DNA from: an uncultured Eubacteriales bacterium
GTDB lineage: Bacteria; Bacillota; Clostridia; Christensenellales; Aristaeellaceae
Reading direction: 5' to 3'
DNA length: 40,654 nt
Assembly: GCA_902765735.1 (NCBI GenBank)
Contig: CACXBB010000020.1
Location: forward strand, 1-40,654
Both the position numbers and the translations under genes were made by a program. Under the pieces are notes generated by a model. The model saw only the letters and a list, made by a program, of their open reading frames with translations, ran no database searches and had not been told where the DNA came from. This document shows positions 4,580-32,922 of the stretch, piece after piece. Position 1 is the stretch's first letter. Each line of letters starts with the position of its first letter.

Positions 4580-4590
4580 ACGGTATAAAC

Positions 4591-16294: not shown

Positions 16295-16469
16295 AGAGTG
16301 GAGAGTGCAGAGTGGAGAGTGCAGTTTTGGTAGAAATCCTTACGGATTTCTTTTGATTAATAGAGTTACGGATTAACGCACAATCGATATATTATCTTTT
16401 TCAATCAGACAAATCCCGAAGGGATTTGAACCAAAACTTCACTCTTCACTCTCCACTCTTCACTCTCAC
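16295..16469. repeat. Heptad-array element A
   Basis: The gap between the infC promoter and znuB holds about four tandem heptamers of AGAGTGG/AGAGTGC at the left (16295-16324) and four of AGAGTGA/AGAGTGG in reverse at the right (16439-16468). Each array is followed inwards by TTTTGG and a small hairpin of AAATCC-GGATTT type, so the whole unit is a ~175-bp inverted-repeat element. Its right edge supplies or overlaps the znuB stop codon TGA. Confidence 0.8.
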
Positions 16470-17482
16470 CCCTTCGCCACCCCAACGCACGAGAACACGA
16501 GGAACACCACGAGGTTCACCCCCACGATCCCTGCGCCGGTGGGGATGGAGTAGACGCAGGAGAGCATCATGCCCACGAGGAAGCAGCTCACGGAGATCAC
16601 CGCGGCGCTGACGGTCACGGCACGGAAGTTATCGAACACCCGCATAGCGGACAATGCCGGGAAGATGATGAGGCTGGAGATCAAGAGCGTGCCCATCATG
16701 CGCATGCCGATGACCACCGTCACGGCGGTCAGAAGCGCGATCAGCCGGTTGTAGAGCTTTGCGCGGGTGCCGGTGGCGCGGGCGAAGGCCTCGTCGAAGG
16801 TCACGGCGAATATGCGCGGGTAGTACAGTATGAACAGCGTCAGCACCACCAGCGAGAGTATCACGGACAGCCACACGTCCGAGGCGCTCATGGCCAGTAT
16901 GGAGCCGAACATGTAGTTGTACACGTCCACGTTCATGCCGCTGGTCATGCTGGTGACCACCACGCCCAGCGCCAGCGCCGAGGTGGAGATCAGCGCGATG
17001 GCGGAGTCGCCCCGCATGCGGCTTTGGCCGCTCAACCGCAGCAGCAGAAACGCGCACAGCACCACCACCACCAGCGTGAACGGCAGCGGGCTCTCGGCGA
17101 CGGACGCGCACACCGCCGCCACGCCGCCGCGCACCGCCGCGGGCAGGAAGGCCGGCAGGCTGTCCGCCGTCACGAACCCCAGCGCCATGGCCACCGTCAG
17201 CGCGCCGAAGCCCACGTGGGACAGGCCGTCGCCGATCATCGAGTAGCGCTTGAGCACCAGGCTCACGCCCAGCAGCGCCGCGCACAGCGACACCAGCGCC
17301 CCCACCAGCAGCGCCCGCCGTATGAATTTGTAGCTCAGATAGCCGCCCATCTCGGAGATCATCCAGCCGATGTCCCTTATGTGGCACAAAAGCCAGACCA
17401 CCACCAGTATGAGCAGCGCCCACAGCACGGCGGTGCCCCGCCGGCCGGGCTTCTTCGTCCATCTCGACAGCAGGTCAGCCAC
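16466..17482 (-). CDS. znuB: Zinc ABC transporter permease
   Basis: This 338-residue ABC-3 family permease has about eight to nine membrane helices and the metal-permease segment YSMIGDGLSHVGFGALTVAM with its conserved H. It would form the membrane pore with ZnuC and receive Zn(II) from ZnuA. The first ~25 residues (RWTKKPGRRGTAV) extend beyond the usual family start. It overlaps znuC by 8 bases, and its stop falls on the end of repeat element A. Confidence 0.92.
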   Translation of the reverse strand: MADLLSRWTKKPGRRGTAVLWALLILVVVWLLCHIRDIGWMISEMGGYLSYKFIRRALLVGALVSLCAALLGVSLVLKRYSMIGDGLSHVGFGALTVAMALGFVTADSLPAFLPAAVRGGVAAVCASVAESPLPFTLVVVVLCAFLLLRLSGQSRMRGDSAIALISTSALALGVVVTSMTSGMNVDVYNYMFGSILAMSASDVWLSVILSLVVLTLFILYYPRIFAVTFDEAFARATGTRAKLYNRLIALLTAVTVVIGMRMMGTLLISSLIIFPALSAMRVFDNFRAVTVSAAVISVSCFLVGMMLSCVYSIPTGAGIVGVNLVVFLVFSCVGVAKG

Positions 17483-18176
17483 GGGCCTTCACCGCCTTGT
17501 TCAGATATTGCGCGGCATACTCCTCCACGGTGCCGTTGAAGTCCATGCCCGTGTCCATCACGGCCACGTGCTTCGCGTCCCTGAGCGCCCCCCGGACGTC
17601 GTGGGACACCATCACCACGGCCACGCCGTGCCGGACGTTCAGGTCGCGTATGACGTCGTACAGCTCCCGCGTGGCCTCGGGATCGAGGCCCGTCACCGGC
17701 TCGTCCAGCAGCAGCATGCCGTCGGTGGCGCACAGCGCCCGCGCCAGCAGTACCCGCTGCTGCTGCCCGCCGGACAGCGTGCGGTAGGACTTCTTGCGGA
17801 ACTTCGTCACGTCCAACAGCGCCATGTTGGCCTCCGCCTTGGCCCGGTCGGCCTTGTTGAAGAAGAACCGGGTCCCCATGCGGTTGACGCACCCGGAGAG
17901 CACGACCTCCTCCACCGAGGCGGGAAAGTCCCGCTGGGCGGCGGTCTGCTGGGGCAGGTAGCCGATCTGGTTCTTCATCAGCCCGTCGCCGTAGACGATG
18001 CTGCCGCTTCTGGGCTTCACCAGCCCCAGCATCGCCCGCATCAGCGTGGACTTGCCGGAGCCGTTCTCCCCCAGCACCACCAGGTAGTCGCCCTTCTCGA
18101 CAGACAGGCTCACGCGGTCCACGGCCACCGTGCCCTCAAACGCAATGGTGACATCCCGAAGCTGTATCAGCGCCAT
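17475..18176 (-). CDS. znuC: Zinc ABC transporter ATPase
   Basis: The 233-residue ATPase has Walker A GENGSGKST, signature LSGGQQQR, Walker B MLLLDEPVTGLD and the switch histidine (MVSHD). It powers uptake by ZnuB. Its ATG lies inside the regulator gene, overlapping the end of fur by 41 bases, and its end overlaps znuB, so the three are translationally linked. Confidence 0.94.
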   Translation of the reverse strand: MALIQLRDVTIAFEGTVAVDRVSLSVEKGDYLVVLGENGSGKSTLMRAMLGLVKPRSGSIVYGDGLMKNQIGYLPQQTAAQRDFPASVEEVVLSGCVNRMGTRFFFNKADRAKAEANMALLDVTKFRKKSYRTLSGGQQQRVLLARALCATDGMLLLDEPVTGLDPEATRELYDVIRDLNVRHGVAVVMVSHDVRGALRDAKHVAVMDTGMDFNGTVEEYAAQYLNKAVKARG

Positions 18177-18594
18177 GCTCCGCCGCCTCCCCGCCGTCTC
18201 TGCATCTTTCGCACAAGCCCACCAGTATGGTCTCCCGGGGGTCCAGCGCGAAGCCGTGGTCCTCCATCAGGTGCTTCGTCAGCGCGTCCATCAGCCGGCA
18301 GTCCACGTGGAACAGGTTGCCGCACTTCGAGCACATCATGTGAAAGTGGCCGTCGCACGCCGCGGCGTCCTCCACGTGCTGGTATTGGGTCACGCCTTGC
18401 ACGCTCTGGTACTTGCGCACCGCACCCTGCTCCGCCAGCTGCTCCAGATAGCGGTACACGGTGCTGCGGCCGATCTTCTCCCCCCGGTCCCGCATCTCAA
18501 AGACCACGTCGTCCACCGAGAAGTGCTTAAGGCCGCGCTCCTTCAAAAAACCCAGCATCTCCCGCTTCTGCCGGGTGTTGTACTCGCCGCGCAT
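18136..18594 (-). CDS. zur: Fur-family regulator, probably Zur
   Basis: The 152-residue protein has the Fur winged helix (GRSTVYRYLEQLAEQGAV), the histidine-rich metal site (HFHMMCSKCGNLFHVDC) and structural-zinc cysteine pairs CSKC and CERC. Fur, Zur and PerR cannot be told apart by motifs alone; the position inside a znu operon argues for zinc sensing. The C-terminal tail (ASGCHHCV) is unusual, Cys/His-rich, and comes from the stretch that overlaps znuC. It starts one base after the znuA stop. Confidence 0.9.
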   Translation of the reverse strand: MRGEYNTRQKREMLGFLKERGLKHFSVDDVVFEMRDRGEKIGRSTVYRYLEQLAEQGAVRKYQSVQGVTQYQHVEDAAACDGHFHMMCSKCGNLFHVDCRLMDALTKHLMEDHGFALDPRETILVGLCERCRDGGEAAEHGADTASGCHHCV

Positions 18595-18595
18595 G

Positions 18596-19501
18596 TCAGT
18601 TCAGCCCCGCTTTCAGCGCCTCGACGTTTTCCCGCATCAGGGACACCCAGCTCGCCCCGGCGTCGAAATCTGCCTGGGACAGCGTCTGCATGGAGTGCAG
18701 CGTCAGTATCTGCGCGCCGGTCTCCTCCGCCACGGTCCGGGCGATGGCCTGGGTGCTCAGTTCGATGGTGTAAATGGCGGGGATATGCTCGGAGGCCACC
18801 TTTTTGATCAGCGCCGTCACGATCTGGGCGCTGGGCTCGGTGTCCGCCGTGCAGGAGGGAAAGGCCGCAAGGTAGTCCAATCCGTAGGCCCGCACGAGGT
18901 AGATGAACGGAAAGCGGTCCGCAAATACCAGGGTCCTGCGCTCGGCGTTTGACACGATGTCCGCGATCTCGGCGTCGATCGCGTCGATCTCACCCGCATA
19001 GGCTTCGGCGTCGGCGCGGTATGCCTCCGCGTTGTCCGGGTCGATCTCCGCGAGCTTCTCCCCCGCGGCCCGGGCCATCTTCGCAGCGTTTTGGGGGGCG
19101 GTCCAGATGTGCTCGTCGTACTCCGGGCCCTCGTCGTGGTGATGCTCCCCCTCCTCCTCGACCAGGTTCCCGACATGATCCATCATCCGCAAGGTGGCCG
19201 GGGCCTCCGCCCCGTCGAAGCCCTCGAGGATGCTGTCCGCCCAGGCGTCGCTCTCGCCGCCGATGTACACGAACAGGTCCGCCTCGCCGATGGCGATGAT
19301 GTCCGCCGGGGTGGGCTCGAAGGAGTGGGCCTCCACGCCGGGCTTCAAAAGCATCGTGACCTCGGCCCTCTCCCCCGCCGCCTGCCGCGCGAAGTCGTAG
19401 CAGGGGAAGTCCGTGCACACAATGGACAGCTTTCCCTCGGCGTATCCGGCGGCGCACAGCATAACCAGCAGAAAAAGCGCCGCGAGCAATGTCTTTTTCA
19501 T
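18596..19501 (-). CDS. znuA: Zinc-binding substrate protein
   Basis: This 301-residue cluster A-I binding protein captures Zn(II) outside the membrane for ZnuBC. It has an N-terminal signal peptide (KKTLLAALFLLVMLCAAGYA), a metal histidine in GVEAHSFEPTP, an acidic His-rich loop (EEEGEHHHDEGPEYDEHIW) typical of zinc rather than manganese carriers, and a long central helix. It leads the operon znuA-zur-znuC-znuB behind a Fur-type operator. Confidence 0.95.
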   Translation of the reverse strand: MKKTLLAALFLLVMLCAAGYAEGKLSIVCTDFPCYDFARQAAGERAEVTMLLKPGVEAHSFEPTPADIIAIGEADLFVYIGGESDAWADSILEGFDGAEAPATLRMMDHVGNLVEEEGEHHHDEGPEYDEHIWTAPQNAAKMARAAGEKLAEIDPDNAEAYRADAEAYAGEIDAIDAEIADIVSNAERRTLVFADRFPFIYLVRAYGLDYLAAFPSCTADTEPSAQIVTALIKKVASEHIPAIYTIELSTQAIARTVAEETGAQILTLHSMQTLSQADFDAGASWVSLMRENVEALKAGLN

Positions 19502-19515
19502 GGCAAATCCCTCAT

Positions 19516-19574
19516 TTTGAAATCAGATTTCAAATTCAATTTCGTATTATAGAGGGATTCCGCGAAAAAGTCAA
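19516..19574 (-). promoter_or_regulatory. znu promoter with Fur-type operator
   Basis: On the minus strand TTGACT (19569-19574) and TATAAT (19546-19551) are 17 bases apart. Around +5 to +25 lies a perfect 19-bp palindrome (19516-19534) with arms TTTGAAATC and GATTTCAAA, the size and position of a Fur/Zur box. Repression by the operon's own regulator is the simplest reading. Confidence 0.8.
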
Positions 19575-19601
19575 GTGCCCGCGGCGATAATCATTGTTAT
19601 T

Positions 19602-21485
19602 TTATTGTACGGTGGGCGTGGTCTTGCGCATCTGAGGCACCGGCGGTATGCGGGGGTCCTCCTTGTTGAGCGTGAAGGTGAAATCGGCCCCCTTGCCGGG
19701 CTCGGACTGCACGCCGATCTGGCCGCCCATGAGCTCCGTGACGAGCTTGGCGATGGCCAGCCCGAGGCCGGTGCCGGTGGTGCGCATGCGGGACCGGTCC
19801 GCCTTGTAGAAGCGCTCCCATATCAGCGGGAGGTCCTTGGGCTCGATGCCGCAGCCGGTATCCCGCACACCCACGGCCACGCACCTGCCGGCGTCCCGGG
19901 CGTACACGGTCACCGTGCCCCCGGCGGGGGTGAAGCTCAGGGCGTTGTCCATCAGGATCACCAGCACCTGGGTGATGCGGTCCTCGTTGCCCATGCAGGA
20001 AAGCGGCGAGCCGTCGGTCTCCACCTTCAATTCGACGCCCGCCTCCGCGGCGATCTGCCGCATGCCCCGGGCGGCGGCCTCCAGTATGCCCGGCAGCTCC
20101 AGCCGCTCCAGCTCCACGCTGACGCGCCCGTCCTGCAATCGCGACATGTCCAGCATCTCGCCCACCAGCTTCTCCAGCCGTATGGTCTCCCGCAGGATCA
20201 CGCGGTAGCTGTCCTGACGCTCCTCCTCGGTGTCCATGCAGCCGTCGATCAGCGGCTCCACCATGCCCCGTATGCCGGTCAGGGGTGTGCGCAGCTCGTG
20301 GGAGATGTTGGCCACGTATTCCCGCCGAAGCTGCTCCATGCGCATAGCCTCGGACATATCCCGCAGCAGGCACACCGCGCCGATGATATCGCCGTTTTCG
20401 TCCATCAGCGGCGAGGCTCCGGCGTACAGCGCGCGCTGGGTGTGGTTCTGCCAGTTCAGCGACTCCGGCTCGCCGGCCTTCATGCAGCGCTTCAACAGCT
20501 CCTTGAGGGCCTGTATGTTGTCGTCCGGGCAGTCCCAGAGATCGTCGATGCCGTTGATCTCCATCAGCTCCAGGAACACCGGGTTGTAGTGCACGACGCG
20601 GCCCTTGTAGTCCACGGCAATCAGGCCCTCCCCGATGCCGGAGATGACCAGCCCCAGCTTGTCGCGCTCCTTGCGCAGGTTCTTGATGGCGTCGATCAGC
20701 CGGGCGGCCATGCTGTTCATGGTGCGGCCGAGGTCGCCGATCTCGTCGTTGGGCAGGCCGGTGATACGCTCGGCGTAGTCGCTCTCGTCGGTCAGCCGCC
20801 GGGCTGCGCGGGTGATGCGCTGTATGGGGCGCACCAGGCGGCGGGTGAGCTGGGTGGCCATGACCACGGCCATCAACAGCGACACGCTGATGACGATGAG
20901 CATCAAAACCCCGATGGTGCGGGTGAGCTGCCTTAACTGCTCCACCGGCTGGGCCAGCACCACGCCGCCCATGACGCCGCCGTCCTCGTCGTAGATGGGC
21001 ACCCCGGCGAACACCACCTCGCCCTCGATGAACTCAAAGTTCTGCATGGCTGAAACCCGCTCTCCCTGAAGGATGCGGGTGAAGAATTGCAGGTCGATGG
21101 CGCTGATGATGTCCACCCACTGCAGGTCGTCCTCCTGGGTGGGCGCGGCCCTCTCCACGCCGGGCTTTGTAGGCGGGGTGTACTGCCACAGCCGCATCTT
21201 CTCCTTCCCCTGCTCCAGGAAGAACACCCGGGCGTCGGTGAGGACCTGATAGATGCGCACCACCCTCGGCGAGGGCTTGAAGCCGCCGTCGGACACGGAG
21301 TGGACGGTCTCGGAGATGCGCTCGGCCTTGTTGAGCAGGTCGCGGATGTAGTTGTCGCGCACATAGCGGTAGGTCAGCACATAGGTGAGCACGCTGGCCA
21401 GCAGCACCACGGAGAGGGCCAGCGCGATGTGGCTCATGAGCGTCTTCGCGCCGATGCCCAGGTTGTTGTACTTTTTAAGCCTCAT
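19602..21485 (-). CDS. Membrane sensor histidine kinase (PhoR/ResE-like)
   Basis: The 627-residue kinase has a first membrane helix at about 15-38, an extracellular sensor region of ~145 residues, a second helix near 185-208, a HAMP linker, a PAS domain (about 275-380), the HisKA box ANISHELRTPLTGIRG (His near 395) and an HATPase_c domain with NALSFTPAGG, DTGCGI and GTGLGLAI. Architecture matches PhoR/ResE/WalK kinases; the signal is unknown. It follows the response regulator by 6 bases, and ends at a gap of about 27 bases before the znu promoter. Confidence 0.94.
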   Translation of the reverse strand: MRLKKYNNLGIGAKTLMSHIALALSVVLLASVLTYVLTYRYVRDNYIRDLLNKAERISETVHSVSDGGFKPSPRVVRIYQVLTDARVFFLEQGKEKMRLWQYTPPTKPGVERAAPTQEDDLQWVDIISAIDLQFFTRILQGERVSAMQNFEFIEGEVVFAGVPIYDEDGGVMGGVVLAQPVEQLRQLTRTIGVLMLIVISVSLLMAVVMATQLTRRLVRPIQRITRAARRLTDESDYAERITGLPNDEIGDLGRTMNSMAARLIDAIKNLRKERDKLGLVISGIGEGLIAVDYKGRVVHYNPVFLELMEINGIDDLWDCPDDNIQALKELLKRCMKAGEPESLNWQNHTQRALYAGASPLMDENGDIIGAVCLLRDMSEAMRMEQLRREYVANISHELRTPLTGIRGMVEPLIDGCMDTEEERQDSYRVILRETIRLEKLVGEMLDMSRLQDGRVSVELERLELPGILEAAARGMRQIAAEAGVELKVETDGSPLSCMGNEDRITQVLVILMDNALSFTPAGGTVTVYARDAGRCVAVGVRDTGCGIEPKDLPLIWERFYKADRSRMRTTGTGLGLAIAKLVTELMGGQIGVQSEPGKGADFTFTLNKEDPRIPPVPQMRKTTPTVQ

Positions 21486-21491
21486 CTTTCC

Positions 21492-22208
21492 TTACGGCTG
21501 CTCAGCCCCCGCTACCTCGAAGCGATAGCCCACGCCCCAGACCGTCTTGATGTCCCAGCCGTTGTCCTCGGTGCACAGCTTGGCGCGGATGCGCTTGATG
21601 TGGCTGTCCACCGCCCGGGTGTCGCCCAGGAAGTCGTAGCCCCAGATGCTCTGCAGCATGTGCTCCCGGCTGAACACCATGCCGGGGTTGCTGGCCAGCG
21701 TCCAGAGGATCTCCGTCTCCTTGGGGGTGCAGGGGATGGGCTTGCCCCCCAGCTTCACGGTGAAGGCGTTCATGTCGATCTCCAGATTGCCGATGACCAG
21801 ATGGGCGGACTTGTCGTCCTCCTTCATCTCCCGCATGCGCCTGAGCACCGCCTTCACGCGGGCCAGCACCTCCCGGGGGCTGAAGGGCTTGGTAATGTAG
21901 TCGTCCGCGCCCATCTCGAGGCCCAGCAGCTTGTCGAACTCGTCGCCCTTGGCCGTGAGCATGATGATCGGCACATTCGAGACCTTGCGCACCTCCCGGC
22001 ACACCATCAGCCCGTCCATGCCGGGCATCATGATGTCCAGTATGATCATATCCGGGTGCTGTATGCGGGCCTGCTGCACCGCCTGATCGCCGTCGTAGGC
22101 GGAGATCATCTGGTAGCCCTCCCGCCGAAAATAGGCGTTCAGAGACTGATGCACGTTCGGATCGTCGTCCGCCACCAGTATCTTGTAGCCCGTCCTGTAT
22201 TCATCCAT
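21492..22208 (-). CDS. OmpR/PhoB-type response regulator
   Basis: The receiver domain has the acidic pair (ADDD), phosphoacceptor D58 (MIILDIMMPGMDG), a Thr/Ser switch in MLTAKG and the lysine in ITKPFS. The C-terminal winged helix ends TVWGVGYRFE. I chose ATG 22208 because GGAGGT lies 8 bases before it; the upstream extension of three residues has none. It pairs with the kinase immediately downstream, and TTGACA direct repeats upstream suggest autoregulation. Confidence 0.95.
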   Translation of the reverse strand: MDEYRTGYKILVADDDPNVHQSLNAYFRREGYQMISAYDGDQAVQQARIQHPDMIILDIMMPGMDGLMVCREVRKVSNVPIIMLTAKGDEFDKLLGLEMGADDYITKPFSPREVLARVKAVLRRMREMKEDDKSAHLVIGNLEIDMNAFTVKLGGKPIPCTPKETEILWTLASNPGMVFSREHMLQSIWGYDFLGDTRAVDSHIKRIRAKLCTEDNGWDIKTVWGVGYRFEVAGAEQP

Positions 22209-22234
22209 TGATCGCACCTCCCTGCGGATTGTAT

Positions 22235-22292
22235 TGTCAAGATATCACAACTTCTTGTCAAACGTGTGTCTTTATTGTCGAATATATGTCAA
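22235..22292 (-). promoter_or_regulatory. TTGACA direct repeats upstream of the response regulator
   Basis: On the minus strand TTGACA recurs at 22235-22240, 22257-22262 and 22287-22292, with TCGACA at 22277-22282. Steps are 22, 20 and 10 bases, about whole helical turns. PhoP-type regulators bind such repeats (TTHACA every 11 bp). The AT-rich remainder of 22293-22482 holds possible promoters in both directions, none strong enough to call. Confidence 0.45.
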
Positions 22293-22500
22293 CAGATTAC
22301 AATACCATATCTTCGACGCACATTCGCCCTATTTAGTTTCACGTTTAATAGTATTGTAACATATAATCCCGGTATATACAACGGTTATTGCAAATATATA
22401 TAAGCGAAAACCGCGAACGGAAGGAATTGCCGCGCAAGAAGCGGGCGCGTCGCGCCGATAATAGCCTGTGCCGGATTTGCGCGGAAGGGACGTGACGGGC

Positions 22501-23094
22501 GTGAAGACGATTCGTTCGATGATCGGCATGCCGGTGGTGTGCCGCAACCGAAGGATCGGGCGGATGGTCCAGGCGGAGCTGGAGGAGGACCTCACCCGGC
22601 TCAGGGGCATATGGGTCAGCGCCGGGTTTCGCGGCGCGCGATGGCTCCCCGCCGAGAGGCTCGAAATGCTGGGCCGGGTGGCCATACTCTCCGACGGCCC
22701 CGGCACGCGGCGGCGCATGCGCATCGCCCCCCTGTTTCGCCGCGCGACGGGCACCGACGGCGCCCGGCTGGGGGCCGTCACCGGGGCGGAGATCGACGAG
22801 ATCAGCTTCGCGGTGACGGCGCTGTGGCTGTCCCTGGGCTTCTGGGACGACCTCGTGACCGGACGGCGGCGCGTCGAACGCTTCACCGCAAACCGGGAGA
22901 CCGGCGAGATCATCATCGATCCCGCCGAATTGGAAAGGGAGGGATGGATCAATGAAGGGCGGCATGACCAAGGGCCTCATCGCCGGGATGCTGATCGGCT
23001 CCGCGGCGGCGACCATGTTCGGCGTGATGAACTGGCAGACCGAGCGCAAGTGGAACCAGGCGGCGAAGAAGACCGGCAGCTGGATCTCCGATAA
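22501..23094 (+). CDS. PRC-barrel domain protein, over-long C-terminus
   Basis: The N-terminal part (IRSMIGMPVVCRNRRIGRM) and a second unit near GARLGAVTGAEID look like PRC-barrel folds, small beta barrels found in sporulation (YlmC-like) and RNA-processing proteins. GTG 22501 has GGAAGGGA 10 bases upstream. Convincing sequence ends near IIDPAELEREGWI; the last ~48 residues run in another frame across the YtxH-like gene and have a shadow-like Arg/Asp/Gly composition. The original stop may have been lost. Function unknown. Confidence 0.7.
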   Translation: MKTIRSMIGMPVVCRNRRIGRMVQAELEEDLTRLRGIWVSAGFRGARWLPAERLEMLGRVAILSDGPGTRRRMRIAPLFRRATGTDGARLGAVTGAEIDEISFAVTALWLSLGFWDDLVTGRRRVERFTANRETGEIIIDPAELEREGWINEGRHDQGPHRRDADRLRGGDHVRRDELADRAQVEPGGEEDRQLDLR

Positions 23095-23122
23095 GGCCGA
23101 CGATTTCGCGCGGAAGATGTGA
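22952..23122 (+). CDS. YtxH-like small membrane-anchored protein
   Basis: This 56-residue protein starts MKGGMTKGLIAGMLIGSAAATMFG, a glycine-rich membrane segment as in YtxH/general stress proteins, and ends with a charged amphipathic helix. AAGGGAGGG precedes the ATG. It lies almost wholly inside the +1-shifted end of the PRC-barrel frame. Its stop TGA is the first triplet of repeat element B. Confidence 0.72.
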   Translation: MKGGMTKGLIAGMLIGSAAATMFGVMNWQTERKWNQAAKKTGSWISDKADDFARKM

Positions 23123-23602
23123 GTGGTTAGGGAGTAGGGAGTAGGGAGTAGGGAGTAGAGGTTACGGCTCCAAAAGCCTTCCCCTTCAGGGGAAGGTGGC
23201 AGCCCGTAGGGCTGACGGAAGAGGTTCTGCCTTCCCCTTCAGGGGAAGGTGGCAGCCCGTAGGGCTGACGGAAGAGGTTCTGCCTTCCCCTTCAGGGGAA
23301 GGTGGATTAATGCCGTCAGGCATTAAGACGGAAGAGGTCGTCCCCCTGCACTACGGAACCCACCCCGTCGTAGGGGCGATGCCCCCATCGCCCTGAACCC
23401 CGTCGTAGGGGCGGCGATTCGCCGCCCGCTGAACTGAAACGGGCGATACGTGCGGGCGGGCTCAGGCTCCCCTGCGCAGGGGGAGCTGTCAGCGAAGCTG
23501 ACTGAGGGGGCGTGTATTCCGCGAACGCCATGAATGGCGTCCCTACGATGGACCGCAGGCCATTCCCCTACTCCCTGCTCCCTACTGCCTGCTCCCTCTC
23601 AC
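23120..23602. repeat. Heptad-array element B with palindromic cargo
   Basis: About four tandem AGGGAGT heptamers (23129-23156) face four degenerate AGGGAGC/AGGCAGT heptamers in reverse (23563-23602). Between them lie three tandem two-hairpin units, two GTAGGG-headed palindromes (23371-23395, 23404-23431), an unlike two-hairpin unit (23468-23512) and a reversed GTAGGG palindrome (23521-23546). No gene is visible in this 480-bp stretch. Confidence 0.8.
23177..23338 (+). repeat. Three tandem two-hairpin units, 53-bp period
   Basis: Units begin at 23177, 23230 and 23283. Each has hairpin 1 (CCTTCCCCTT-AGGGGAAGG), TGG, a second small hairpin and GACGGAAGAGGT. Hairpin 2 is CAGCCC-GGGCTG in the first two and ATTAATGCC-GGCATTAA in the third: its sequence changes but its pairing is kept. 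Confidence 0.85.
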
Positions 23603-23624
23603 CGGAACAAAGGACGTAATCTTC

Positions 23625-24687: not shown

Positions 24688-24727
24688 GATTTTGAATGTG
24701 AATGCTTTGCTCGAAAGGCGGTGCGCT

Positions 24728-24991: not shown

Positions 24992-25088
24992 CCTCCGCAG
25001 GCCGCCGGCGGTCTGTTCGGGCTGCATCAGGGCTGGAAACCGGGCGTTTCCAGCCCTGTAATCGTGTAGAGCAAAGGAAACACCTGTC

Positions 25089-26024
25089 ATGCAAATGCGA
25101 AAACTTGGACGAAGCGGCCTCGCGGTCTCCCGATTGTGCTACGGCACGCTGACCATGTCGCCGCTTCAGAAGGACCTCTCCCCGGAGGCGGGCGCGCGGC
25201 TGCTGGTCCACGCCTACGAGCGCGGGGTGCGGTTTCTGGACACCGCCGATCTCTACGGCACCTACCCCCACATCCGGCTGGCGCTCAGGGACGCGCCGGA
25301 CTACGTGGTCAGCACCAAGGCCTACTGCTGGGACGAACCCACCGCCGCCGCCGCGCTGGAGCGTGCCTTCCGGGGCCTCGGGCGGGACTACGTGGACCTG
25401 TTCATGCTGCATGAGCAGGAATCCCTCTACACCCTGCGGGGCCACGAGGAAGCCCTCGTCTACCTGCAAAAGCAAAAGGAGCTCGGGCACATCGGCGCCG
25501 TCGGGGTCAGCACCCACTATGTCGCCTGCGTGCGGGCCGCGCCCCGCTTTCCGATGATCGACGTGATCCACCCCCTCGTCAACCGGGCGGGCATCGGCAT
25601 ACAGGACGGCACCCGCGAGGACATGGAGGACGCCATCCGGGCCGCGCGGGAACACAACATCGGCATATTCGCCATGAAGCCCCTGGGCGGCGGGCACCTG
25701 ATCGCCGACAACCGGGCGGCGCTCGAGTACGCCATCGGCAGTCCCCTGCTGGACAGCGTGGCCATGGGCATGCAGAGCGTCGAGGAGATCGACGCCGACG
25801 TCGCCGCCTTCGAGGGCGATTTCAGTCGGCTGGACGCCCTCAGGGACCGCCCCCGGCAGATCATGGTGCACGACTGGTGCGAGGGCTGCGGCAAGTGCGC
25901 CGAGCGCTGCCGCCAGAAGGCCATCGCCGTCGTCGACGGCCGGGCGCGGGTGGACCCGGAAAAGTGCGTGTTCTGCGGCTATTGCGCCCGGGCGTGCCCC
26001 CAGTTCTGCATAAAGGTGGTGTGA
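25089..26024 (+). CDS. Aldo/keto reductase with C-terminal ferredoxin domain
   Basis: The first ~255 residues form an aldo/keto reductase barrel: GRSGLAVSRLCYGT, LDTADLYG (catalytic Asp and Tyr), STKAYCWDE (Lys) and IGIFAMKPLGGGHL. Residues ~258-311 carry two 4Fe-4S motifs (CEGCGKCAERC and CVFCGYCARACP). Such fusions are common in anaerobes and may take electrons from ferredoxin; the substrate is unknown. It lies between ireB and ruvX, 3 bases before ruvX, so is probably in their operon. Confidence 0.93.
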   Translation: MQMRKLGRSGLAVSRLCYGTLTMSPLQKDLSPEAGARLLVHAYERGVRFLDTADLYGTYPHIRLALRDAPDYVVSTKAYCWDEPTAAAALERAFRGLGRDYVDLFMLHEQESLYTLRGHEEALVYLQKQKELGHIGAVGVSTHYVACVRAAPRFPMIDVIHPLVNRAGIGIQDGTREDMEDAIRAAREHNIGIFAMKPLGGGHLIADNRAALEYAIGSPLLDSVAMGMQSVEEIDADVAAFEGDFSRLDALRDRPRQIMVHDWCEGCGKCAERCRQKAIAVVDGRARVDPEKCVFCGYCARACPQFCIKVV

Positions 26025-26027
26025 GAG

Positions 26028-26768
26028 ATGCGGGTGATCTGTCTGGACGTGGGCGAAAAGCGCATCGGCGTGGCGGTGTCCGACCTGCTGGACCTCACCG
26101 CCCAGGGAGTGGAGACGATATGGACCAGGGGCTTCGAGCGCGACGCCGAGCGGGTCGTGGCGCTGTGTAAACAGTACGAGACCAACCGCGTGCTGTGCGG
26201 CCTGCCGAGGAATATGGACGGCACCGAGGGCTTTCAGGCCGGGCGGGTCCGGCAGTTCGCCCAGAGACTCACGGAACAGGGGCTGAACGTCCGCTTCGAG
26301 GACGAGCGCCTCACCACAAAGCTGGCCACCAGCCTGCTGATCGAGGGCGACGTGCGCCGCCAAAAGCGCAGGGACGTGGTGGACAAGCTCGCGGCGACCT
26401 ACATCCTGCAATCCTTCCTGGACCGGGGCGGATGGCGGGATGAAGCACATAAAAACTATCTGAGGAGTGTATATCACATGAGCGAGAACAATCATGAACT
26501 GGATATGGAGCGCGAGGACATCGTGCAGCTGGTGGACGAGGACGGCAACGAGGTGGACTTCGAGCACCTGATGACCCTCGAGCACAAGGGCCGGACCTAC
26601 ATCTGCCTCGTGCCCGTGGAGCCCATGGAGGATGTGGAGGAGGACGAGCTGGTGATCCTGCGCATCGAGACCGACGAGGACGGCAACGACTACTATACCT
26701 CCATCGACGACGACGCCGAGCTGGACGAGGTCTTCGAGAAGTACCTCGAGATCGCCGAGGCGGACTGA
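26028..26768 (+). CDS. ruvX: RuvX (YqgF) fused in frame to a DUF1292 protein
   Basis: Residues 1-140 are RuvX/YqgF, an RNase H-fold nuclease thought to act on Holliday junctions or 16S rRNA ends: LDVGEKRIGVAVSD, then FEDERLTT and KRRDVVDKLAA with catalytic acids. Instead of stopping, the frame continues through AHKNYLRSVYH into MSENNHELDMEREDIVQLVDEDGNEVDFEHLMTLEHKG, a complete DUF1292 protein that is normally separate. GAGGAG lies 11 bases before the internal ATG 26478, so the ribosome may also start there and make free DUF1292 protein (96 residues). Either a fusion or two nested products is possible. Confidence 0.88.
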   Translation: MRVICLDVGEKRIGVAVSDLLDLTAQGVETIWTRGFERDAERVVALCKQYETNRVLCGLPRNMDGTEGFQAGRVRQFAQRLTEQGLNVRFEDERLTTKLATSLLIEGDVRRQKRRDVVDKLAATYILQSFLDRGGWRDEAHKNYLRSVYHMSENNHELDMEREDIVQLVDEDGNEVDFEHLMTLEHKGRTYICLVPVEPMEDVEEDELVILRIETDEDGNDYYTSIDDDAELDEVFEKYLEIAEAD

Positions 26769-26775
26769 CACAAAC

Positions 26776-26808
26776 GCCCCCTGTCCCGATACGGTCGGGG
26801 CAGGGGGC
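26776..26808 (+). terminator. Terminator-like hairpin after ruvX-DUF1292
   Basis: GCCCCCTGTCCCGA pairs with TCGGGGCAGGGGGC (one G-U) around a 5-base loop. No T-run follows, so termination may be weak. Confidence 0.6.
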
Positions 26809-26817
26809 ATCTGCGTC

Positions 26818-27192
26818 AATTGAGAATTGAATAATTGAAAATTGAGAATTGCGGTGCAAATCCTTGCGGATTTGATTATATTCAAGCGTGGGAATATCGT
26901 AGGGGCGGCGAAGCGCCGCCCGCCCAAAAGCCTTCCCCTTCAGGGGAAGGTGGCTGGCCGCAGGCCAGACGGAAGAGGTCGTGCCTTCCCCTTCAGGGGA
27001 AGGTGGCGCGTAGCGCCGGATGAGGTGCCCCGTCATGCCTCCCTCTTAGAGGGAGGTGGCTCGGCGTAGCTGAGACGGAGGGAGTGGGAGGTGCCGAGCG
27101 TAGCGAGGCGGAAAGGTCCCGTAAATGACGGAAAAGATGATCCCACAACTATCCGTGAAGAACCTCAATTCTCAATTCTCAATTCTCAATTT
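26818..27192. repeat. Heptad-array element C with palindromic cargo
   Basis: AATTGAG/AATTGAA heptamers (26818-26852, one extra base) face four AATTGAG heptamers in reverse (27164-27192). Inside lie an AAATCC-GGATTT hairpin like that of element A, a GTAGGG palindrome (26898-26924), two-hairpin units at 26931, 26984 and 27038 (53-54 bp apart) and a partial fourth. The right array encodes the last residues and stop of miaA. Confidence 0.8.
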
Positions 27193-28116
27193 CCCTTCTA
27201 TCTCCTCCGCTATTGCCTCGACCCCCCTGCCCTCGGCACTGATCCACGTGACCCTCTCATCATGCCGAAACCAGGTCATCTGCCGCTTGGCAAAGCGGCG
27301 GGTGGCCTGTTTCATCATGCGCACGGCCTCGTCCATGGGGACATCGCCCCTGAGCGCGGCGGCGATCTCCTTATACCCGATGGCCTGCACGGCGGTGGGA
27401 TGGGCCTGGGGGTCGGCCATCAGGCGGCGCACCTCATCAACGAGCCCCTGTTCGATCATCCGGTCCACCCGCCGGTCGATGCGGGCGTAGAGCGCCTCCC
27501 TGGGCCAGTCCAGCGCGAACAGCGCCTCCCGGTACTCCCCCGCCCGCGCCCGGTCCCGCCGGGTGTGCTCGGTCTGGGTGACGCCGGTGAGCCGGTAGAT
27601 CTCGATGGCGCGGGACACCCGCCGCACGTCGTTCTCGTGAAGCCGCGCGGCGGACGCCGGGTCGACCTCCGAGAGCATGTCGTGAAGTCTGCGCCTGCCC
27701 TCCGGCGTCTCTCCCATGGCCATCAGTTCGGCGTGCATGGTCTCGTCGCTCTGCATGGAGAAGGACATGGGCCGGGTGACCGCGTCGATGTACAGCCCCG
27801 TGCCGCCGCAGAGCACCGGCTGTCGGCCCCGGCTCATGATGTCGGCGATGCAGCGCCGCGCGTCCTCCCGGAAGGTGTCGGCGGTGTAGCGCCGCGCGGG
27901 GTCCACGAACCCCATGAGATGGTGGGGCACGCCCTGCATCTCATCCTCCGTGGGCACCGCGGACAATACCGGCATCCCCCGGTAGACCTGCATCGAGTCC
28001 GCCGACACCACCTCGCCGCCGATCAACCGGCACAGCGCCACCGCGACGGCGGTCTTGCCCGAGGCCGTGGGTCCCGCCACCACAGGCAGGAAGGGCTTGT
28101 TGTTCACATCATTCAT
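27172..28116 (-). CDS. miaA: tRNA dimethylallyltransferase
   Basis: MiaA adds a dimethylallyl group to A37 of tRNAs reading UNN codons; MiaB, encoded upstream, then methylthiolates it. The 314-residue protein has P-loop GPTASGKT, SADSMQVYRGM, PHHLMGFVDP, GGTGLYIDAV and the C-terminal QAIGYKE and RRFAKRQMTWFR motifs. Its last residues (KLRIEN) and the TGA are read from the AATTGAG repeat array, so the native end was replaced by repeat DNA. It is the last gene of the mutS-mutL-miaA run. Confidence 0.96.
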   Translation of the reverse strand: MNDVNNKPFLPVVAGPTASGKTAVAVALCRLIGGEVVSADSMQVYRGMPVLSAVPTEDEMQGVPHHLMGFVDPARRYTADTFREDARRCIADIMSRGRQPVLCGGTGLYIDAVTRPMSFSMQSDETMHAELMAMGETPEGRRRLHDMLSEVDPASAARLHENDVRRVSRAIEIYRLTGVTQTEHTRRDRARAGEYREALFALDWPREALYARIDRRVDRMIEQGLVDEVRRLMADPQAHPTAVQAIGYKEIAAALRGDVPMDEAVRMMKQATRRFAKRQMTWFRHDERVTWISAEGRGVEAIAEEIEGKLRIEN

Positions 28117-28133
28117 ATCCTTTTCTTGCGAAA

Positions 28134-28157
28134 GGACGCCATGAATGGCGTCCCTAC
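28134..28157. repeat. Single GTAGGG-type palindrome between mutL and miaA
   Basis: GGACGCCATGAATGGCGTCC followed by CTAC matches the right arm of the pair at 11114-11184. It fills most of the 45-base gap between the two cistrons. Confidence 0.8.
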
Positions 28158-28161
28158 GGTG

Positions 28162-30093
28162 TCACTGAATCCTTTTAAACATCTTCTCAAGTTCCCTGCG
28201 TGAAAGGGCCTTCATCACCGGCCGACCGTGGGGGCACGTCGGCGGCGCGCCGGTTTCCAGCATCTGCGTGATCAGGGCCGCCACCTCGCCGTCCGACAGC
28301 CGGTCGCCGCCCTTCACGGCGCTCTTGCACGACATCTGCATGATCTCCGCCCGCCGCAGCTCCACCGTGGCGGTCCTGACCCGGTTCAGCGCGCCGATGG
28401 CGTCCATGAACGCGGGGCGCAGGTCGGCCTTGCCCAGTATGAAGGGCACGGCGCTCACCCGGATGTCCTGCTCGCCGAAGGGCTCCACGGCGTAGCCCGC
28501 GTCGGAGAGCACCTCGAGGTTGTCCCGCACCAGCGCCATCTCCCGGGCCGACAGGTGCACCACCAGCGGCGTCAAAAGCTGCTGGGAGCCCCGGCCCGCC
28601 TCCAGCTTTTGCATCAGGCGCTCGTAGTTCAGGCGCTCGTGGGCGGCGTGCTGGTCGATCATCACCAGCGCGTCGTCCGCCTCCACCAGTATGTAGGTGT
28701 TCATCAGCACCCCGATCACCCGGTAATCCGCCCGCTTCTTCCCGGGCGCGGCCTTCGGCGCGACCTCTTTAAGCGCCACCTGCACGGGCTTCTCCCTGGG
28801 TATCGGGCGGGGGATCTCCCGCACCGGCGGCGCGGGAACAGGCCTCGGCACCGCCAGGGCGGGGGCCTCCCGCACGGCGTCCCCGGGCACGCCCTTCAGC
28901 TTCTCCTGCTCGGCGCGAACGGCCCGCAGGTATTCCGCCTGCGCGGCGAGCCTGACCGAGGGCCCGTCCTGCTTCACAGGTTCCTGCTTTTGCGTCTCCG
29001 CGGGCGCCGGCTTTTCCGCCTCCGCGGGGACCGGGGCGATCTCCCGCACGGCGGCGACGCGCTCCACGCGGGGCGCCTGCGGGCGCTCCTCCCCCAACTG
29101 CAGCACATGCTCCCCCTCGAAGGCCGTGGCCATCAGCCGCTCCGCGGTCTGGCGCATGGCGATCTCGTCCCTGAAGCGCACCTCCAGCTTGTTGGGGTGC
29201 ACGTTCACGTTGACGGCGGACGGCGGCAGCACCACGTTCAGCGCGCACATGGGGTAAAGCCCGATGGTCACGCGGGTGCGGCAGACCTCCTCCAGCGCCT
29301 TGGTCAGCGCGGCGCAGCGCACGGCGCGGCCGTTGATGAAGAACGACTGGTGCGCCCGGGTGGCCTTCGCCAGCTCTCCCACGCCGATCAGCCCGTAGAC
29401 GCGCACGCCGCCCTCGGCGGCGTCCACCGCCACCATCTGCTCGGCGGTCTGCTTGCCGTACACCGCGAACACCGCGTGCCTGAGCTTGCCGTCGCCGAAG
29501 CTGTGGTACACCGTCTGGCCGTTGCTGATGTAGCGCACGGACACGTCCGGGTTGCCCATCAGCATGCGGGCCACGGCGTCCGCCACCAGCCCGCCCTCGT
29601 AGCCGGGCTTCTTCAAAAACGCCCGCCGCACCGGCAGGTTGTAGAACAGGCCCTTCATCACGAAGGTGGTGCCCTCGGGGCAGCCGACCTCCTGCACGCG
29701 CAGGCCCTGCCCGCCGTCGATGTTCAGCCTGACGCCGGTCTCCTGCCCCTTCGCGCGGGTGGTCATCTCCACATGAGACACCGACGCGATGGACGGCAGC
29801 GCCTCGCCGCGAAAGCCCAGGGTGCGGATGTCGTCGAGCTGCTCGGCGGTCTGCAATTTCGAGGTGGCGTGGTTTTCAAAGGCCAGCCGCACCTGACCGG
29901 GCTCGATGCCGCAGCCGTTGTCCGTCACCCTCAGATAGTCGATGCCGCCGCCCTTGATCTCCACGGTGACGGCGGTGGCCCCGGCGTCGATGGAGTTCTC
30001 CATCAGCTCCTTGACCACGGAGCTGGGGCGCTCGACGACCTCTCCCGCCGCGATGCGCCCGACGGTGGCGGCGTCCAGTATGCGAATGGGCAT
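28162..30093 (-). CDS. mutL: DNA mismatch repair protein MutL
   Basis: MutL links mismatch recognition by MutS to strand nicking. The GHKL ATPase domain shows IAAGEVVERPSSVVKELMENSIDAGA, DNGCGI and GFRGEALPSI. After a Pro/Ala-rich linker (about 335-450) comes the C-terminal nuclease with DQHAAHERLNYE and CPHGRP, metal-site motifs of endonuclease-active MutL found in organisms without MutH. Length is 643 residues. It begins 15 bases after mutS. Confidence 0.98.
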   Translation of the reverse strand: MPIRILDAATVGRIAAGEVVERPSSVVKELMENSIDAGATAVTVEIKGGGIDYLRVTDNGCGIEPGQVRLAFENHATSKLQTAEQLDDIRTLGFRGEALPSIASVSHVEMTTRAKGQETGVRLNIDGGQGLRVQEVGCPEGTTFVMKGLFYNLPVRRAFLKKPGYEGGLVADAVARMLMGNPDVSVRYISNGQTVYHSFGDGKLRHAVFAVYGKQTAEQMVAVDAAEGGVRVYGLIGVGELAKATRAHQSFFINGRAVRCAALTKALEEVCRTRVTIGLYPMCALNVVLPPSAVNVNVHPNKLEVRFRDEIAMRQTAERLMATAFEGEHVLQLGEERPQAPRVERVAAVREIAPVPAEAEKPAPAETQKQEPVKQDGPSVRLAAQAEYLRAVRAEQEKLKGVPGDAVREAPALAVPRPVPAPPVREIPRPIPREKPVQVALKEVAPKAAPGKKRADYRVIGVLMNTYILVEADDALVMIDQHAAHERLNYERLMQKLEAGRGSQQLLTPLVVHLSAREMALVRDNLEVLSDAGYAVEPFGEQDIRVSAVPFILGKADLRPAFMDAIGALNRVRTATVELRRAEIMQMSCKSAVKGGDRLSDGEVAALITQMLETGAPPTCPHGRPVMKALSRRELEKMFKRIQ

Positions 30094-30108
30094 GTTCTAC
30101 CTCCGATA

Positions 30109-32697
30109 TCAAATCCTCTTGGCCTTCTCGTTCAATTCATACAGCTTGTTGAGCGCGTCGAGGGGGGTCATGCTGACCACGTCCAGTCCGGCGATCTCCT
30201 GCGCAAGCTCCATGGGCTTGAAGTCCATAAGCCCGAGCTGTCGGTCCTTCGCCCTGTGCTCCTTTAATATGTTCTGCCCGAGGTTGCCCCGCTGCTGGTC
30301 GTCCACCTCCAGTCGGGCCATGATCTGCCGGGCCCGGGCGATCAGCGACTTCGGCAGCCCCGCCAGCCGCGCCACGGACACGCCGAAGCTCTTGTCCGCG
30401 CCGCCGCGCACGATCTTCCGAAGGAATATGACGTCCTCGCCCTGCTCCCGGGCAGTGATGCGGAAGTTGACCACGCCGGGAAGCTGACCCTCCAGCTCCG
30501 ACAGCTCGTGATAGTGGGTGGCGAACAGCGTGCGCGCGCCGCACTTCTCCGAGGCGATGTACTCCACCGCCGCCCAGGCGATGGACAGCCCGTCGAAGGT
30601 GGAGGTCCCCCGCCCCACCTCGTCGAGGATCAGCAGGCTGTTGGGCGTGGCGAACTTGAGGATGGTCGCCATCTCGCTCATCTCCACCATGAAGGTGGAC
30701 TGGCCGCCGTAGAGGTCGTCGGAGGCCCCGATGCGGGTGAATATGCGGTCCGTGAGCGCGATGTCCGCCGCGTCCGCCGGCACGAAGGACCCCATGTGGG
30801 CCATCAGCACGATCAGCGCCACCTGCCGCATGTAGGTGGACTTGCCCGCCATGTTGGGGCCGGTGATGATCATCACCCGCTCCTCGCCGGAGAGCGCGGT
30901 GTCGTTGGGCACAAAGCGCTCCCGGCCGATGGAATCCTCCACCACCGGGTGGCGGCCGTTGGTGATCTCATAGCGGCCCTCGTCGTTGATCCTCGGGCGG
31001 GTGTAGTTGTACTCCGACGCCACCCGCGCAAGCGACAAAAGCGCGTCCAGCGCCTTCAGCGACCCCACCGTGGCCTGCAGCGCGGGCAGCGCCTCCTTGA
31101 GGGCATTGCGAATCTCGGTGAACAGGTCGTACTCCAGCCGGGTGGCATTCTCCTGCGCGCCCAGTATGCGGCCCTCCAGGTTCTTGAGCTCCTCGGTGAT
31201 GAAGCGCTCGGCGTTGGCCAGCGTCTGCTTGCGCACGTAGTCGTAGGGCACGTGATCGTAGAAGGACTTGGTGACCTCGATGTAATAGCCGAACACCCGG
31301 TTGTAGCCGATCTTGAGGTTCTTGATGCCGGTGCGCTCGCGCTCCCGGGCCTCCATGGCGGCGATGTAGCCCTTGCCGTTCTCGGAGATGGCCCGCAGCT
31401 CGTCCAGCTCGGCGTTGTAGCCCTCCCTGATGATGCCCCCGTCCTTGACGGACAGCGGTGCCTCCGGGTCGATGGCAGCCTCCAGCTTCGCGTGCAGCTC
31501 CGGCATGGGGTCGAGCTGTGCAAGCAGGCGCCTCATCAGCGCGGCGTCGAAATCCCCGCCGATATCGCGGATGCGGGGGATCACCGACAGCGTGTGGGAC
31601 AGGCTCAGGCACTCCCGGGCGTTCACCGCGTCGTAGGCGATGCGGCTCAACAGGCGCTCCACGTCGTAGACCTCGTCGAACAGGCTCCTCAGCTCGTCAG
31701 CGGCCATGGGGTTCTGCATCAGCGCCTCCACGGCATTAAGCCGGGCTTCGATGGCCTCCTTCTCCCGGAGGGGATGCTCGATCCAGGCGCGCAGCAGGCG
31801 GCTGCCCATGGCGGTGCCGGTCCTGTCCAGTATCCACAGAAGCGACCCCCTCCGGCTCTTGCCCCGGGCGGTCTGGGTGAGCTCCAGGTTGCGAAGCGCC
31901 ACCCGGTCCAGGGCCATGTAGCGCTGGGACTCGTAGTTCTTCGCGGTGATGATGTGCGCCAGGGCGTTCTTCTGGGTCTGCGTGAGGTAGGAGAGCAGCG
32001 CCCCCGCGGCGCACACCGCCAGACGGTCCCCTTCAAAGCCCATATCGGCGATGGACTTTTCGAAGTGGGCGGTCATCACCCTGGCGGCGAAGGCGTAGGT
32101 GAAGCGCTCCTCCTCCAGCGTCTCCGCGGACCCGGCGCGCTCGGGCTCAAGCTGGGCAAGGGCGTCGGGGTCATTGACGATCAGTTCGCTGGGATTGAGC
32201 CGCGCCAGCTCGTCCGACAGGTTGGAGCGCGCGTCCATGATCTGGTACAGGCAGAACTCGCCGGTGGACACGTCGCAGAACGCGCAGCCCGCCTGGTTCC
32301 TCTTGATGCACAGCGCGGCGATGTAGTTGGCCTTCTTGTCCTCCAGCATGTTGGACTCGATCACCGTGCCCGGCGTCACCACCCGGGTAACCTCCCGCGC
32401 CACCAGTCCCTTGGCGGTGGCGGGGTCCTCCATCTGCTCGCAGATGGCCACCTTGTAGCCCTTCTCGATCAGCTTCTGAAGGTAGGCGTCCACCGCGTGA
32501 TACGGCACGCCGCACATGGGCGCGCGCTCGGAAAGCCCGCAGTCCTTGCCCGTCAGCGTCAGCTCCAGCTCCCGCGAAACCAGCTTCGCGTCGTCGAAGA
32601 ACATCTCGTAGAAGTCCCCCAGCCGGAAAAACAGTATGACGCCGGGGTACTGCTCCTTGATGTTCAGATATTGCTGCATCATCGGCGTGACGGGCAT
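30109..32697 (-). CDS. mutS: DNA mismatch repair protein MutS
   Basis: The 862-residue protein shows the mismatch-reading Phe-x-Glu (LGDFYEMFF), connector and lever domains, Walker A GPNMAGKST, Walker B DEVGRGTSTFDG, and the ATHYHEL switch. It has the full MutS1 length and domain order. The start follows GAGGTG. Upstream lies repeat element D, which separates it from ylbF and may carry or interrupt its promoter. Confidence 0.98.
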   Translation of the reverse strand: MPVTPMMQQYLNIKEQYPGVILFFRLGDFYEMFFDDAKLVSRELELTLTGKDCGLSERAPMCGVPYHAVDAYLQKLIEKGYKVAICEQMEDPATAKGLVAREVTRVVTPGTVIESNMLEDKKANYIAALCIKRNQAGCAFCDVSTGEFCLYQIMDARSNLSDELARLNPSELIVNDPDALAQLEPERAGSAETLEEERFTYAFAARVMTAHFEKSIADMGFEGDRLAVCAAGALLSYLTQTQKNALAHIITAKNYESQRYMALDRVALRNLELTQTARGKSRRGSLLWILDRTGTAMGSRLLRAWIEHPLREKEAIEARLNAVEALMQNPMAADELRSLFDEVYDVERLLSRIAYDAVNARECLSLSHTLSVIPRIRDIGGDFDAALMRRLLAQLDPMPELHAKLEAAIDPEAPLSVKDGGIIREGYNAELDELRAISENGKGYIAAMEARERERTGIKNLKIGYNRVFGYYIEVTKSFYDHVPYDYVRKQTLANAERFITEELKNLEGRILGAQENATRLEYDLFTEIRNALKEALPALQATVGSLKALDALLSLARVASEYNYTRPRINDEGRYEITNGRHPVVEDSIGRERFVPNDTALSGEERVMIITGPNMAGKSTYMRQVALIVLMAHMGSFVPADAADIALTDRIFTRIGASDDLYGGQSTFMVEMSEMATILKFATPNSLLILDEVGRGTSTFDGLSIAWAAVEYIASEKCGARTLFATHYHELSELEGQLPGVVNFRITAREQGEDVIFLRKIVRGGADKSFGVSVARLAGLPKSLIARARQIMARLEVDDQQRGNLGQNILKEHRAKDRQLGLMDFKPMELAQEIAGLDVVSMTPLDALNKLYELNEKAKRI

Positions 32698-32726
32698 TTC
32701 AATGCACCTCGCTTGTAGTAAGAAGT

Positions 32727-32922
32727 CAGGAATTGGAAATCAGGAGTTAGGAGTTAGGAATTAGGAATTGGGCTGCCTGCTGCCGCGCGATAAACCCGTA
32801 GGGACGCCCTTAAAGGCGTCCGCAGCGCCCATATCGCTCCGATCGGACGCCCCAAGGGGCGTCCCTACACCAGACCTGCGGCATTCTTTAATTCCTAATT
32901 CCTAATTCCTCATTCCTCACTC
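32727..32922. repeat. Heptad-array element D
   Basis: About six degenerate heptamers (AGGAGTT, AGGAATT) at 32727-32772 face about five (AATTAGG, AATGAGG, AGTGAGG) in reverse at 32887-32922. Between them is an inverted pair of GTAGGG palindromes (32798-32823 and 32843-32868). The right edge is the TGA stop of ylbF. Confidence 0.8.

Follow-up and report, generated by a model that had tools for sequence, protein, structure and literature searches.

Among the repeats described for bacterial genomes, the GGGAATC heptamers reported by Rehm et al. in 2015 are closest to those treated here: they occur in two Xanthomonas genomes as 70 and 75 convergent pairs, which were left unexplained (PMC4692102). 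Mostly four units long and intergenic, the Xanthomonas repeats lie on average 28 nt behind the upstream gene and at more conserved places than controls; 83% are found in the same gene context in both species, with differing lengths (PMC4692102). Here we describe four intergenic elements (A to D) of a single 40.7 kb contig, in the following called the window, from an uncultured Eubacteriales bacterium of the Aristaeellaceae (CACXBB010000020.1, assembly GCA_902765735.1, genome total 2.92 Mb). They are bounded by facing arrays of degenerate heptamers and are probably short non-autonomous mobile hairpin elements, a kind of miniature inverted-repeat element. With the Xanthomonas class they share purine-rich heptamers, convergent pairs with one array per strand, about four units and a position just behind the upstream gene. 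The Xanthomonas class, however, consists of one word (GGGAATC/GGGANTN) that is absent from the commonest classes here and is treated as G-quadruplex repeats; neither element boundaries nor cores are described for it, and the repeats are generally unassociated with mobile elements (PMC4692102). The first-pass annotation of the window, made from the letters alone, knew of no description of such a class. Convergent heptamer pairs as such had been reported in Xanthomonas, but no account of paired heptamer arrays as the ends of mobile elements was found in the open-access literature, subscription papers being outside the search.

Further repeats and elements have to be compared. STRR heptamers of cyanobacteria reportedly go back to Mazel in 1990, and facing heptamer arrays are said to base-pair into the P6b stem of the Nostoc tRNA-Leu intron. 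The arrays in this stem face each other as here, but they lie inside one intron and form no dispersed element. The ends of miniature inverted-repeat transposable elements (MITEs) and of REPINs are usually conserved sequences; in the elements described here, in contrast, a single core family can have ends made of different, unlike heptamers that agree in their period. Degenerate heptanucleotide repeats are documented for P6b (PMC3488679, PMC4476775) and dispersed purine-rich arrays for the STRR or GGGGA(T/C)T heptamers of cyanobacteria (PMC4692102, PMC5088731), with few pairs in Nostoc according to the 2015 paper (PMC4692102), while PMC3542288 only cites a cyanobacterial heptamer probe. Type II MITEs and REPINs resemble the present elements in being short and non-coding, with inverted ends and many dispersed intergenic copies (PMC3542288, PMC3116915), and for type II MITEs no matching transposase is described (PMC3542288).

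In the window, facing arrays of period 7 were confirmed at the borders of all four annotated gaps by reading of the sequence, by a period scan and with Tandem Repeats Finder. At a self-match score of at least 14 and periods of 3 to 30 the scan called six arrays at period 7, five at its multiple 14 and none elsewhere; the right array of B passes only at period 14, and the left array of C only in Tandem Repeats Finder (85% matches). No array occurred in 20 Markov-2 simulations of the window. The array size of four to six units given previously needs correcting, as arms usually comprise about 4.5 units; the left array of D is longer but degenerate outward. Reading of the sequence also recovered the annotated AAATCC..GGATTT hairpin at both ends of A and at the left end of C, the GTAGGG palindromes in B, C and D, and the repeated two-hairpin units in B and C. 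Folded as single strands with DNA parameters, the elements each close into one long stem, with z values against shuffles of −10.5 (A), −12.7 (B), −9.7 (C) and −7.5 (D), and no shuffled sequence folded as well as any of them. The right array of C rewrites the end of the neighbouring MiaA and supplies a new stop codon, the C-terminus being EGKLRIEN here and KGKL in the relative G150. At gathering scores Rfam gave only two tRNAs in the window. Element A, the only one searched, had no match in plasmid and phage record collections.

To place these elements in a wider frame, an 827 kb sample of the own genome was analyzed, consisting of stretches of selected contigs in which the array content is perhaps somewhat enriched. 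It holds 144 arrays of period 7, whereas, multiples of 7 aside, no period between 4 and 24 exceeds 27 arrays (period 12). Neighbouring arrays within 600 bp were counted as RY (purine array followed by pyrimidine array) or YR (reverse order), giving 65 RY pairs, 1 YR pair and 9 others. Random placement of the same arrays yielded a mean of 8.8 RY pairs and a maximum of 17 in 1000 trials, so that the inverted pairing, on whose excess over chance the annotated class depended, is far above chance. In stretches of four genomes of the genus the ratio was 131 RY to 2 YR with 17 other neighbour pairs. The commonest heptamer classes are AGAGTGG, AATTAGG, AATTGGG, AGGGAGT, AGAGTGC, AATTGAG and AACAGGG. 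The two arms of an element are alike: in the own genome their agreement was 0.888 compared to 0.690 after re-pairing, the highest of 200 re-pairings reaching 0.758 (38 of the 65 elements, arms of 24–45 bp), and in the genus genome G060 it was 0.876 compared to 0.745 (26 elements). The arms thus pair and match within elements as terminal inverted repeats, and the four-genome stretches contain 129 such elements, short, non-coding and dispersed in many copies as MITEs are.

Table 1. Positions of the four window elements and their arms (window coordinates).
Feature	Position	Strand	Description
Element A	16295..16466		30-bp arms; core with inverted ends GGTnSAAATCC; two subterminal hairpins
A left purine arm	16295..16324	+	AGAGTGG/AGAGTGC units
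A right arm	16437..16466	-	AGAGTGA/AGAGTGG; outer end touches stop codon of ABC-3 transporter (frame 16466-17482, minus strand)
Element B	23128..23597		AGGGAGT arms enclosing several REP-like hairpin units
B left purine arm	23128..23158	+	begins a few bases past stop codon of upstream gene
B right arm	23566..23597	-	called at period 14
Element C	26818..27191		AATTGAG arms; AAATCC/GGATTT hairpin at left end; REP-like units inside
C left purine arm	26818..26851	+	imperfect; Tandem Repeats Finder
C right arm	27164..27191	-	encodes last MiaA residues RIEN and stop codon
Element D	32728..32919		AGGAATT/AGGAGTT arms; core with GTAGGGACGCC palindrome and inverted ends
D left purine arm	32728..32769	+	outer part degenerate
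D right arm	32889..32919	-	ends beside stop codon of YlbF-family gene (frame 32921-33325, minus strand)

The arms share the tandem short unit of a microsatellite, yet their unit number does not vary freely from array to array. In the four samples 199 of 310 arrays measure 28–36 bp, with 60 shorter and 51 longer. Within the 28–36 bp arms the commoner classes mostly start in one phase or at the next base, as in the AATTAGG class, where 25 of 41 arms start with GAAT and 9 with AATT. Variant units recur in place: AGGCAGT is unit 2 in eight and unit 3 in six of 17 arms, and GAGAGTG is unit 3 in five of nine (both counts include orthologous copies). The outer 28-mers of 254 arms of at least 28 nt comprise 200 distinct sequences, of which 31 recur. 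For the core with GGTnSAAATCC ends (core 1), 16 of 35 measurable arm ends lie exactly 34 bp and four lie 35 bp from the anchor, the remaining 15 being found at 20 to 62 bp; the 18 elements of this set include one or more G166 orthologues of own copies. The 34-bp spacing is alike for AGAGTGC, AATTAGG and AATTGAG arms. With their peaked length, nearly constant phase and recurring variant units, the arms thus resemble units of about 32 bases that are copied as a whole, unlike free-running repeats. Between families, period, purine strand and approximate length are kept and sequence is not, in agreement with the annotated proposal that the ends are maintained by structure or period.

The space between the arms is taken by a short loop, by a palindromic core of one of several types, or by nested units resembling repetitive extragenic palindromic (REP) sequences. 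Four core queries, which overlap in part, gave 34 matches including the query copies; 26 of these carry both arms, six one arm and two none. Nearest cores usually share their arms (arm similarity 0.85 compared to 0.70 overall in the own genome, 0.86 compared to 0.74 in G060), while across all pairs whose cores show some similarity, core and arm similarity correlate weakly (0.22 and 0.08, respectively). Similar cores with unlike arms exist, as do elements with two unlike arms. Arms and core thus travel together in close copies and are exchanged over longer times. Two dispersed copies lie 13 kb apart on one contig, with 98.3% identity over 172 of 172 bp, arms included. As both are situated within an outer palindromic repeat, about 26 bases of flank are alike on one side, and the other flank is alike in part. 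Some heptamer elements are enclosed by such an outer repeat of the GATAAAC..GGGCTTCGCCC type (L077:14867-14911, L078:8235-8279), and at L142:17720-17990 the whole element is bracketed by a 35-bp outer inverted repeat. As a general feature an outer palindrome was rejected, with mean scores of 12.0 compared to 12.1 for crossed pairs in the own genome and 13.6 compared to 12.2 in G060.

These data bear on the possibility that the arrays are heptamer microsatellites grown by polymerase slippage and inverted at each site by fold-back (quasi-palindrome) copying, with no transposition. Heptamers have been described as the most abundant category of long repeats in many bacterial genomes, a 7-nt polymerase contact has been proposed, and MacGregor, describing TAACTGA heptamers, cites slippage for heptamers at large (PMC4679880). 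Such a process is also consistent with the length differences of the Xanthomonas repeats between species at conserved sites (PMC4692102), with the 26 of 310 arrays in the four samples that exceed 45 bp (the longest 115 bp), and with arms of one element in the own genome being alike beyond their class (0.921 compared to 0.876 ± 0.012 after re-pairing within a class, n=26). It does not account for the peaked arm length, the near-constant start phase, variant units recurring at different loci, the full-length dispersed copy pair, or the recurrence of core families, with their arms in register, at many sites, and we consider it unlikely. By the same token self-expansion, annotated as the alternative to mobility, finds no support as the main process in view of the peaked length and the inherited variants, even though some arrays are long.

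The position of the elements relative to genes, called by a simple codon score, was found to be asymmetric. Outer ends facing a stop codon lie at a median distance of 9 bp, 34 of 61 within 12 bp (overlaps with gene ends included), compared to a median of 50 bp and 2 of 53 within 12 bp for ends facing a start codon; two of the 65 elements had no usable neighbours and six lie inside predicted frames. Solitary arms show the same orientation, the 5' end of the purine strand lying close to a stop codon (median distance 7 bp in 31 cases) and the 3' end far from it (median 187 bp in 21 cases). A supply of stop codons in all frames by the heptamers was rejected on reading, as several classes contain none. 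The placement directly behind stop codons would suit regulatory hairpins, 3' end stabilisers or anti-Rho elements kept by each gene for their function, with mobility as a by-product. The purine arm always comes first, whichever side is transcribed, so that the C-rich arm would be concealed within the stem, and the Xanthomonas repeats occupy the more conserved places mentioned above (PMC4692102). The absence of elements from a relative in 10 of 17 comparisons, and the other arms and core found at site A in G150 (see below), weigh against this reading, which we regard as very unlikely.

Presence and absence were compared with G166 and G150 (assembly 76% complete), which match the window with 89–97% identity over the listed aligned pieces, 92–97% in all but one. 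The comparison covers 180 kb of aligned, overlapping stretches, some own stretches being counted against both relatives. For 14 own elements, 17 comparisons were made: the element is absent in 10, represented by one arm in 1 and present in 6. In the reverse direction, 10 comparisons of the relatives' elements with the own genome gave 2 absent, 1 with one arm and 7 present. At site A, G166 has 13 bp and no element, and G150 holds other arms and another core, a case counted as present in spite of both being unlike. Site B in G150 has one arm only, and the element at site C is missing from both relatives. At site D the same element is found in G166, and G150 keeps the arms around a 12-bp loop. 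Matches of the AGGAATT class swing several hundred-fold within the genus, from 827 in G060 to 2 in G016 (overlapping matches of this one heptamer class). Together with the dispersed 98.3% pair, the 10 absences in 17 comparisons support the annotated mobility: the elements turn over like mobile elements. The genus includes 'Clostridia bacterium RGIG2434' from goat ileum, locus L212 sharing 8000 identical bases with a G150 stretch.

For an enzyme that could move the elements, the search was made at two levels. RY intervals of 0.6–5 kb numbered five in about 1.9 Mb of sampled stretches, three of them with matching arm classes. One of these three was rejected as an autonomous copy because it spans two loci of the window region that are known to be separate. 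Of the protein families, Y1_Tnp has a match in 16 of 28 genus genomes including the own one (a single match, 32.6 bits at a cut-off of 23). This, together with hairpins, intergenic placement, nested REP-like units and the lack of a target duplication, is what would be expected if the elements were of the REP/REPIN type and moved in trans by a Y1 (RAYT) transposase. A Y1 transposase in the carrier genomes, as that system has it, was however not found throughout: Y1_Tnp has no match in G060, which holds the 827 pattern matches, nor in G166 and G150, and we regard this origin as very unlikely.

In another scenario a telomerase-like enzyme would add about 32 nt of G-rich heptamers to both 3' ends of a break, which are then joined. 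The geometry of a break healed in this way is that of a head-to-head telomere fusion. Purine strands running toward each other are exactly this arrangement, and minimal hairpins with loops of 1–7 nt and arms that differ in class would fit as well. RVT_1 matches are however missing from the own genome and from G060 and occur in 33 of 124 other family genomes compared to 8 of 26 array-bearing ones (genomes with the AGGAATT pattern taken as array-bearing, one heptamer class, relatedness uncorrected). Moreover, arms recur as exact 28–33-mers with variant units, which is unexpected from an iterated 7-nt template, and whole elements are duplicated with their cores; we therefore hold healed breaks to be extremely unlikely. 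In the same family set PDDEXK_2 was found in 7 of 26 array-bearing and 16 of 124 other genomes. The co-occurring transposase or reverse transcriptase for which the first-pass annotation proposed to look thus did not emerge among the three families searched, as none of Y1_Tnp, PDDEXK_2 and RVT_1 tracks the arrays.

The lack of tracking by Y1_Tnp, PDDEXK_2 and RVT_1 weighs against mobile hairpin elements as well, as do the following observations. No autonomous element with the same ends was seen in about 1.9 Mb of sampled stretches; the other two matching-arm intervals contain, by eye and without a family search, no transposase but ParA/ParB-like and sigma-factor-like host genes. A target duplication, annotated as something to be sought, did not appear, repeats of at least 4 bp being present in 11.6% of 129 elements compared to 14.4% in permuted flanks; the element boundaries are accurate only to within a few bases. 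Divergence between the genes obscures the exact empty sites, and some absences may be deletions. About one third of the arrays fall outside 28–36 bp, 46 solitary arms have no purine- or pyrimidine-rich array within 600 bp, and arms were observed reassorted with other partners. In G060 the agreement of arms within a class (0.931 compared to 0.893 ± 0.016 re-paired, n=12) did not exceed the best of 200 re-pairings (0.935). Finally, gene context is kept for 83% of the Xanthomonas repeats (PMC4692102) compared to 6 of 17 comparisons with the element present here, the species divergence being different; this stability speaks against simply merging both classes.

On balance we favour the mobile hairpin elements. 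Each end is then a terminal inverted repeat of about 30–34 bp, made of some 4.5 degenerate purine-rich heptamers reading inward, and both ends pair into a long stem around the short loop, palindromic core or nested REP-like units. Arm length, phase, pairing, polarity, dispersal, turnover and placement are observed, whereas the mechanism that follows is inferred. A host or phage enzyme supplied in trans might recognise the purine stem of period 7 rather than a fixed sequence, presumably as folded single-stranded or cruciform DNA, and insert the element without target duplication. The insertions that persist would mostly be those directly downstream of a stop codon, where neither coding sequence nor promoters are hit. 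If the enzyme reads the inward purine strand among other features, the polarity would be accounted for. Alternatively it could result from survival, as transcripts from either side would meet the purine arm first and the C-rich arm would stay buried.

Arrays of this kind are not restricted to the genus. An AGGAATT array with up to 2 mismatches was found in 26 of 150 family genomes, belonging to 12 of 50 genera, and the reversed control pattern in one genome among those listed from this set. When 391 genomes of the class were searched for the AGGGAGT array, one besides the own was found to hold it. A scan of named genomes gave at least 118 stretches with an array, of which the 80 shown with names were used; these loci, selected for holding one array word, span cyanobacteria, Clostridia, Planctomycetota, Nitrospira, Alphaproteobacteria, Bacteroidota, Chloroflexi, Acidobacteria and others. 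The cyanobacterial loci among them show 36 RY compared to 2 YR pairs, plus 35 same-direction and 66 mixed-composition pairs, but their array lengths are broad; the non-cyanobacterial loci gave 12 RY and 0 YR. In 55 stretches of a viral collection, found by two array patterns and in some cases from the same contig, 32 RY, 2 YR and 39 other neighbour pairs were counted. One of these loci, L292, is a tailed-phage late operon according to PHROGs (head protease, terminase, portal, major head and major tail protein). It holds six facing pairs, five with spacers below 60 nt and four of these with 1–7 nt, and arms common to different partners. At L292:3453-3620 the frame of the terminase large subunit contains a heptamer hairpin within its 5' end and remains open across it.

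Two side observations concern the window itself. At 40313-40413 tandem 51-bp REP-like hairpin units (AGCCTCCCTCCCAGAGGGAGG...) occur with no heptamer array called alongside. In the region 2894-4679 the two tRNA genes (Rfam) stand beside relaxase-like and tyrosine-recombinase-end-like frames, seen by eye only, and the region is possibly the remnant of an integrated element.

Tentatively, and with more doubt than for the elements of this genus, miniature hairpin elements of this kind could form a trans-phylum superfamily. Recognition of the ends would depend on period and strand bias (about 4.5 purine-rich heptamers, 32 bp, facing inward) and not on sequence, which would leave the end sequence free to change or to be exchanged. 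Cyanobacterial, Xanthomonas and Clostridia heptanucleotide repeats and some of phages would then be copies or remnants, moved by an enzyme that has yet to be described. If many heptanucleotide repeats are the ends of mobile hairpins, the explanation of these repeats by slippage changes. There would be a hidden layer of fast-turning insertions behind genes that can be found by a simple search for period 7, facing purine arms and about 32 bp. It also raises the question which machinery recognises a period instead of a sequence.

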